Origin: Actinotalea solisilvae
Lineage (GTDB): Bacteria > Actinomycetota > Actinomycetes > Actinomycetales > Cellulomonadaceae
NCBI RefSeq assembly: GCF_016464425.1
Contig: NZ_JADDKQ010000001.1
Location: 434,001 to 498,000 of the forward strand
Length of the DNA: 64,000 nt
Direction of reading: 5' to 3'
Made by a program: the position numbers and the translations under genes. Positions 57,018 to 58,608 of this stretch are shown piece by piece. The first letter of the stretch is position 1. Every line of letters starts with the position of its first letter. The notes below the pieces were generated by a model. That model did no database searches. It saw only the letters and a list, made by a program, of their open reading frames with translations, and had not been told where the DNA came from.

Positions 57018-57545
57018 GTGGACCTGTCCCGACCGATCGCGCCGGAACCGTACGGGCTGCTGCCCCGGCTGCCCGCCCTGGCCGTGCGCAGCGACGACCT
57101 CGTCGACGGCGAGGCGATGCCGCACCGGCACACGGCTGCCGGCGGGAGCACCTCGCCGCACCTGGCGTGGGAGGCGCCCGAGGGGACGCGCAGCGTGGTC
57201 GTCTCGTGCTTCGACCCCGACGCGCCGTCGCCCGCGGGCTACTGGCACTGGACCGTGTGGGACCTCCCGGCGGGCACGACGTCGCTGCCCGCCGGCGCGG
57301 GCTCGCCCGACGGCGCGGGCCTGCCCGCGGGCGCGCGGCAGGCCCGGAACGACGGCGGTGGCGTCGGGTACACGGGCGCGGCACCGCCCCGGGGCGACCA
57401 CGAGCACCGCTACGTGTTCGCGGTCCACGCGCTCGACGTCGAGACGCTCGACCTCGGCCCGGACCCGACGCCGACGTCGGTGGCGATCTCCGCGCTCTTC
57501 CACGCGCTCGCGCGCGGGACCCTCACGGTGACCTGCCGGCCCTGA
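57018..57545 (+). CDS. YbhB/YbcL (PEBP) family protein
   Basis: 175-residue phosphatidylethanolamine-binding-like protein: SPHLAWEAPEG, the anion pocket VVSCFDPDAPSPAGYWHWTVWDLPAG and GYTGAAPPRGDHEHRYVFAVHALD. Cytosolic, ligand unknown. GTG at 57018 with GAGGAGGAG upstream. Confidence 0.9.
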   Translation: MDLSRPIAPEPYGLLPRLPALAVRSDDLVDGEAMPHRHTAAGGSTSPHLAWEAPEGTRSVVVSCFDPDAPSPAGYWHWTVWDLPAGTTSLPAGAGSPDGAGLPAGARQARNDGGGVGYTGAAPPRGDHEHRYVFAVHALDVETLDLGPDPTPTSVAISALFHALARGTLTVTCRP

Positions 57546-57579
57546 CCGGCGCCGCCGGGGGCGGCCGTGGCATCGCGCC

Positions 57580-58050
57580 ATGGAGTGCGGGGTGCTCGGC
57601 CCCTCGTCCTGCGGTACGCAGCCGGTGCCGTGACCGTCGAGGGCGCGCGCCGCCGCGCCCTGCTGGCCGCGCTCCTCGCCAGCCGACGGCGAGGTCGACG
57701 CCGACGTCTTCACGAGCGCCTGCGGCGCAGCGCCCCGGCCGGCCCCGCGGACGCCGTCCGGCTGCTCGACGACGGGCTCGCGCTCACCGCGCGCACGACC
57801 GCCGCGGCGCCCGGCCGACGGCGTCGCCGCGGACGCCCGCGCCTCCGCGGCGCTCGGCGAGCTCGGCCTGCTGCCCTCGGCCGACCTGCGCTCCGCGCAC
57901 ACCGAGGCCCTGCGCGCGCCGACCGGGACCCGGACGGCCGCGGCGCCCGGCGGACCGCCGGCGCCCTCGGCGCGCCCGGCTTGCGGGGTGCGAGCGCCCC
58001 GGCTTGCAGCGGTGCGAGCGCCCCGACGGGCGGCGCGCCAGGATGGGCGC
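57580..58050 (+). pseudogene. decayed BTAD/SARP-type transcriptional regulator remnant
   Basis: No single frame gives a protein, but pieces of an AfsR/SARP regulator are readable in order. ATG 57580 gives MECGVLGP; one base is missing near 57600 and the next frame gives LVLRYAAGAVTVEGARRRALLAALLAS (57603-57683). A third frame gives GEVDADVFTS (from 57688), then ADAVRLLDDGLAL about 57748, and ARASAALGELGLLPSADLRSAH later. The DNA-binding part between the second and third piece is deleted. This fills the 505-bp gap between the PEBP and YbaK genes. Confidence 0.65.
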
Positions 58051-58608
58051 ATGCCGATCGACGCGCTCGCCTGGACGCCCGCCCTCGACCGCCCCGACCT
58101 CGTCGCCCCCGCGACCGCGGACGCCCTGCGCCGCTGGGCCGACGTCGAGCCCGCCGTGGCCACCGGCGTGCGCGTGGCCGCGATCGACCCCGACCTCGCC
58201 GACACGGCGGCGCTCACCGCCGCCTACGGTCTGGCGCTCGACGCCTCGGGCAACTGCGTGCTCGTCGCGGGGCGGCGCGCGGGCGAGGAGCGCGTGGCGG
58301 CCGCCGTCGTGCTCGCGAGCACGCGCGCGGACGTCAACGCGGCGATCAAGCGCCTGCTCGACGTGCGCAAGGCGTCCTTCATGCCGATGGACCGCGCGGT
58401 CGAGGAGTCGGGCATGGAGTACGGCGGCATCACGCCCGTCGGGCTGCCCGCGGGCTGGCGCGTGCTCGTGGACGCGCGCGTGCGCGACGCGGGCGACGTC
58501 GTCGTCGGCAGCGGGCTGCGTCGCTCCAAGCTGGCGCTGCCGGGCGACCTCCTCGCGACCATGCCGGGCGCCGAGGTCGTCGAGGACCTCGCGGTGACGG
58601 CGCCGTGA
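58051..58608 (+). CDS. YbaK/EbsC family aminoacyl-tRNA deacylase-like protein
   Basis: 185 residues of the YbaK/ProX editing-domain fold: NCVLVAGRR, VVLASTRADVNAAIKRLL, catalytic-type Lys in DVRKASFMPMDRAVEESGMEYGGITPVGLP and VVVGSGLRRSKLALPG. Likely trans-editing of mischarged tRNA (Cys/Ala-tRNA-Pro); specificity not readable. ATG at 58051 follows CAGGAT by six bases. Overlaps the acetyltransferase gene (GTGA). Confidence 0.88.
   Translation: MPIDALAWTPALDRPDLVAPATADALRRWADVEPAVATGVRVAAIDPDLADTAALTAAYGLALDASGNCVLVAGRRAGEERVAAAVVLASTRADVNAAIKRLLDVRKASFMPMDRAVEESGMEYGGITPVGLPAGWRVLVDARVRDAGDVVVGSGLRRSKLALPGDLLATMPGAEVVEDLAVTAP

Follow-up and report, generated by a model that had tools for sequence, protein, structure and literature searches.

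AfsR of Streptomyces coelicolor is a large SARP that combines a SARP domain with NOD, arm and TPR regions. To our knowledge, large SARPs have seldom been assigned a target outside Streptomyces clusters. In published SARP operators, direct repeats recur every 11 or 22 bp (PMC10936776), and the main operator of PimR consists of three heptameric direct repeats separated by 4-bp spacers (PMC5930380). A search of a limited body of literature returned no account of a SARP/BTAD or large-SARP pseudogene, nor of a Cellulomonas SARP regulator or SARP-methyltransferase pair. Broken regulator genes are common, and what the locus described here adds is the type of regulator, the existence and place of its intact orthologues, and a hypothesis for its target that names a specific operator.

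The window, by which we mean the whole 64-kb stretch of DNA that was analysed, contains a gap of 505 bp (57546-58050) that runs from the stop of a PEBP gene (57545) to the start of a YbaK-type gene (58051). The features in and around this gap are as follows.

57018..57545, + strand: intact upstream neighbour, a PEBP / YbhB-YbcL family protein of 175 aa (Pfam PF01161, E 1.8e-35; TIGR00481 over cut-off)
57580..57680, + strand: N part of the regulator remnant, aa 1-34, in frame 1 and then in frame 0 from 57609 (frame-tolerant alignment)
57753..57788, + strand: middle part of the remnant, doubtful, aa 114-125, frame 0 (collinear in the frame-tolerant alignment)
57808..57921, + strand: C part of the remnant, aa 200-237 (the BTAD end), frame 1 (HMMER, blastn and shuffles)
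57988..58018, + strand: two GTGCGAG 7-mers (57988 and 58012), 24 bp apart, in the opposite orientation to the methyltransferase operator of relatives
58051..58608, + strand: intact downstream neighbour, a YbaK-type aminoacyl-tRNA editing domain protein of 185 aa (Pfam PF04073, E 3.9e-15)

Against the YbaK_EbsC model the downstream protein reaches 31.5 of 153 bits, far under the cut-off.

Tolerating changes of frame, we aligned the gap with residues 1-300 of a 967-aa BTAD regulator that is encoded at the same locus in a congener (genome G014). The two are homologous: an ordered match begins at 57580 (aa 1) and reaches 57921 (aa 237), weaker pieces beyond it being disregarded, with a score of 215.6, a value reached by none of 400 dinucleotide shuffles (mean 85.7, maximum 120.2) and by none of 800 stretches of 505 bp drawn at random from the same 64 kb (maximum 125.4), while the reverse complement scored 82.8 and the reversed protein 90.6. 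An earlier note on this DNA had read ordered fragments of a SARP/BTAD regulator into the gap, with at least two changes of frame, and this holds; the remnant passes from frame 1 to frame 0 at 57609 and back to frame 1 at 57790 (main piece from 57808). HMMER likewise matched 57805-57969 to the regulator (E 1.1e-6, 62% identity), and blastn aligned the gap with G014 at 82% across 112 bp. For the C part tblastn gave 6.9e-11 with composition correction off, a setting at which chance hits elsewhere in the window went down to 8.4e-5; with default filters and the regulator as query it found no match in the window at 1e-8, gap included, which we count against our reading. The one single-frame reading tested, 57567-58049, had no Pfam match.

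The fragments were also scored piece by piece (N, middle, C and tail) against four orthologues (those of G014, G033, G004 and C. fimi), with 200 shuffles each. For the N part (57575-57740) no shuffle reached the score against three of the orthologues, and 13 of 200 did so against C. fimi, a marginal result; by eye only, this part may continue in frame 1 to about 57740. The C part was reached by 0 of 200 shuffles against each of the four. The middle fragment, 'AVRLLDDGLALT' (57753-57788), is collinear, yet 71, 38, 36 and 3 of 200 shuffles reached its score, so that it is not significant alone and is marginal against C. fimi only. Of the three fragments that had been proposed, the first and last are therefore secure and the middle one is not. 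Together the secure pieces account for about 72 of the 967 residues of the regulator (aa 1-34 and 200-237); aa 35-199 are largely missing from the alignment to aa 1-300, and full-length searches recovered nothing secure beyond aa 260. The tail after 57935 has no reliable similarity to the four orthologues (132, 15, 34 and 19 of 200 shuffles reach its score), which, like the weakness of the middle fragment, counts against our explanation. A possible trace of the regulator's last residues in this tail, at 57936-57973 and about 82% identical to the end of the G009 regulator (blastn E 2e-4 against a database of 2.9 kb), was rejected, as 150 of 200 shuffles scored equally well or better on the first 3.6 kb of G009. 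Repeats at the remnant amounted to one direct pair (73%) and two inverted pairs (73% and 80%), which we judged to reflect composition.

On these comparisons the gap very probably holds what decay has left of a large AfsR-type SARP gene, a pseudogene of a familiar kind and a case of ordinary gene loss. The estimated contamination of the window's genome, 8.17%, counts against this explanation. Two other readings bear on the state of the remnant. Small indels are a common error in very G+C-rich DNA, and the frame changes might have arisen in sequencing or assembly, the gene itself being functional; we regard this as the least probable of the alternatives, given that most of the gene is absent, with 505 bp standing in place of a regulator gene of about 2.9 kb and a methyltransferase gene of about 1.15 kb in G014. 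It is also very improbable that a short functional peptide or regulatory RNA, such as a YbaK leader, was kept from the old gene. Two direct repeats do precede YbaK, and the composition of the C part is still coding-like by codon position (98% G+C at the third position in 57801-57980), as would be expected of a young pseudogene too; yet frame changes separate the parts, and among the 18 other genus genomes the remnant DNA has a match at 1e-9 in G014 alone, where the gene is intact. We take the remnant itself to be without function. Under the pseudogene reading, deletions would have removed the interior of the winged helix and of BTAD together with everything recognisable past about aa 237, and small indels would have shifted the reading frame of what was left.

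The intact orthologue that the earlier note proposed to look for at this place in related genomes does exist. In G014 the 967-aa regulator begins about 70 bp past the PEBP gene and lies between PEBP and YbaK, and in G009 the regulator stands before a methyltransferase gene and YbaK. The G014 protein has an OmpR-type winged helix (Trans_reg_C, PF00486, E 6.8e-8, aa 23-75, over cut-off) and a BTAD domain (PF03704, E 2.7e-28, aa 93-231), followed by a putative ATPase region, where AAA_16, AAA_22 and NB-ARC match with E values between 4e-5 and 4.4e-4, each below its curated cut-off. The regulator alignment contains the motif GPGGVGKTR, which we take to be Walker A. The single TPR match, TPR_16 at aa 160-214, falls inside BTAD and below its cut-off. 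The lost product would probably have joined an OmpR-like winged helix and BTAD to a STAND-type ATPase. Orthologues 48-63% identical to that of G014 occur in G033 (1000 aa), C. fimi HM71 (955 aa), G009 and G004, the last two cut by contig ends, and relatives at 36-42% identity lie on other contigs in three further genus genomes (G002, G015 and G016). Counting the window's own genome, 12 of 19 genus genomes have a BTAD match; the window's genome itself has none at E 0.001. Judging by the one named neighbour, C. fimi HM71, the genus is probably Cellulomonas or one close to it.

The size of these orthologues bears on what kind of SARP was lost. That recognisable sequence reaches only to about aa 237, the BTAD end, would suit a small SARP of the DnrI type (about 270 aa), and short open frames that encode BTAD proteins (265-276 aa; G014, G017, G006 and G015) do occur in congeners. 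We nonetheless consider a small SARP unlikely, as the orthologues of this neighbourhood are large or cut by contig ends and the sole DNA match at 1e-9 among the 18 other genus genomes is the large regulator of G014. Because the intact orthologues measure 955-1000 aa where complete, the lost gene probably encoded a large AfsR-like SARP; of the proposed AfsR/DnrI-type assignment, the first half is thus the probable one and the second not. The DNA-binding segment, previously described as lost, is cut rather than wholly gone, with aa 1-34 remaining and the Pfam winged helix spanning aa 23-75, and since the orthologues are large AfsR-type SARPs, most of the regulator gene has gone and not this segment alone.

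By sequence the best solved relatives of the G014 regulator are AfsR and EmbR (E 1e-24). The likeness to AfsR extends over aa 2-570 (E 2.1e-28), taking in the winged helix, BTAD and the putative ATPase region, and to the repeats at 11-bp spacing before the partner gene, as for the SARP operators in PMC10936776. Unlike AfsR, the G014 orthologue reaches just 123 of 1430 bits, far under the NCBIfam AfsR cut-off; its probable target is the adjacent methyltransferase gene and not afsS; and the gene is broken in the window.

The order of genes around PEBP and YbaK differs among relatives as follows.

G014: PEBP-regulator-methyltransferase-YbaK
G009: regulator-methyltransferase-YbaK, on a contig that starts inside the regulator (5' end missing) and has no PEBP
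G004: PEBP-YbaK-regulator, on a contig that ends inside the regulator
C. fimi: PEBP-YbaK-regulator-methyltransferase
G033: YbaK-GNAT-regulator-methyltransferase

Matches to both PEBP and YbaK lay within one fetched stretch in 12 of the 18 other genus genomes. Nine of these have just 13-75 bp between the match ends, G014 has the cassette of regulator and methyltransferase, G007 has another open frame and G015 has about 1.65 kb. As for the remaining six, G009 has YbaK only, G002 and G017 have PEBP without YbaK in the stretch, and G006, G010 and G013 fall outside this comparison. It seems that the PEBP-YbaK spot is open to insertions. The open frame in the G007 gap (L032, 1697-2356) encodes 219 aa and looks by eye like a membrane protein; the G015 interval lies in L040 between 1889 and 3538.

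In all four cassettes whose sequence continues to the far end (G014, G009, G033 and C. fimi HM71) the regulator stands tail-to-tail with the gene of a SAM-dependent methyltransferase, and the cassette methyltransferases are 61-72% identical to that of G014. This partner resembles TnmJ and Rv2258c: it matches the PDB sequences 8g5s (TnmJ, E 1.1e-40) and 5f8c ('Methyltransferase', E 8.4e-31), the latter being presumably Rv2258c, and it carries PF21320, the winged helix of Rv2258c-like proteins. AfsR-like proteins do not in general have this partner, to judge by their neighbourhoods: among the best 80 named regulator relatives listed, some of which end at contig ends, it stands at only one locus, that of C. 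fimi HM71 (L080, at E 1e-10), and we count this against our explanation. The same goes for the gap itself, in which we detected no remains of the methyltransferase gene. In 57922-58050, forward scores for such a remnant lay within those of shuffles (150 and 62 of 200 reached them), and on the reverse strand the best score against G009 was 46, with shuffles at a mean of 40.4 (sd 4.2, maximum 55).

Each of the four cassettes has three similar 7-mers, repeated every 11 bp, in the 150 bp upstream of the presumed start of the methyltransferase gene; the array ends about 54-64 bp short of the start codon (L160 1-245, L031 5147-5300, L162 3411-3584 and L080 9963-10162). The 7-mers read GTGCGAG three times over in G014 and G009, AGCGACC/TGCGACC/TGCGACC in C. 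fimi and TGCGATC/TGCGAGC/TGCGAGG in G033. The period of 11 was noticed by eye first and tested afterwards; none of 1000 shuffles reached the repeat score in the promoters of G014, G009 and C. fimi, and 13 of 1000 did so in G033. The geometry is that of PimR-type SARP-LAL regulators as described in PMC5930380, where the PimR heptamer is CGGCAAG; the cassettes differ from PimR in having GTGCGAG (G014 and G009) or TGCGACC (C. fimi), and in their partner gene. Genome-wide, the exact triple TGCGA-N6-TGCGA-N6-TGCGA occurs in 6 of 59 genomes, the window's own among the 59, and a backward control pattern in 2 of 59. In G009, G014 and G033 it is found once per genome, each time at the cassette methyltransferase promoter. 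The other three genomes, G017, G023 and G043 (L169, L172 and L173), have different spacers, and we count them, like the hits of the control pattern, against our explanation. The G017 triple precedes what looks by eye like an OmpA-like protein, with no cassette in the surrounding 3 kb; G017 has no match to the regulator, but about 35 kb from the triple it has two short open frames with BTAD. In the window's genome the triple operator had no match with up to one mismatch.

Most likely, then, the intact regulator would activate the methyltransferase gene by binding the three direct 7-mers in its promoter. The earlier note had left the former target as either a neighbour or gone; it was most probably both, namely the adjacent convergent methyltransferase, although this is less firmly drawn than the pseudogene itself. 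We infer that the ancestor of the window's genome also carried the methyltransferase, as we do the order of events, in which the cassette would have been lost in this lineage and deletions would have taken the methyltransferase together with its operator. More tentatively, and with somewhat more doubt than conviction, we suggest that the relatives carry a self-contained cassette, in which an AfsR-like STAND-SARP has the triple repeat ahead of the convergent methyltransferase gene as its one strong operator genome-wide, that this cassette has been acquired, relocated and lost in one piece around PEBP-YbaK, and that the window records a recent loss. If this is true, a dedicated one-target SARP with no evident biosynthetic cluster around it would offer a simple way to learn what STAND-SARPs sense. 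In the window's strain, nature would have deleted the entire regulator-target circuit. The relatives combine an intact regulator with a single methyltransferase and a clear candidate for the operator, which allows target and binding site to be tested together.

The secure fragments give some indication of age. Relative to G014, differences at codon positions 1/2/3 number 7/4/15 in the N part (aa 11-34, 24 codons) and 5/7/11 in the C part (38 codons), with 43/32/74 in intact PEBP (174 codons), 25/26/62 in intact YbaK (180 codons) and 3/3/3 in the doubtful middle piece (12 codons). As the secure fragments have an excess at the third position much like that of PEBP and YbaK, the decay looks recent, and most of the divergence probably predates it, although the numbers are small. 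The close relative G007 (84% identity in YbaK, 79% in PEBP) has no match to the remnant and a different open frame in its gap, which we count against our explanation and which makes any date for the loss tentative.

Two smaller observations concern the partner. The window contains 13 copies of GTGCGAG, 11 on the + strand and two on the - strand, and those at 57988 and 58012 are the only same-strand pair within 40 bp. Among 15 relatives, the 13 without a cassette there have no GTGCGAG in the 150 bp before YbaK, while G014 and G009 have three each, on the other strand. The pair could be what remains of the methyltransferase operator; its spacing and orientation differ and it may be due to chance, so that it is suggestive only. 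No close copy of the cassette methyltransferase was found in the window's genome, where the nearest protein is encoded at C12:404890-405924 and 39% identical to that of G014. This gene was considered as a moved cassette methyltransferase and is taken to be a paralogue, at 39-40% identity to those of G009, G033 and G014 against 61-72% among cassette members. It lies 28 kb before the window (L163), beside what appears by eye to be a partial ATPase regulator gene.
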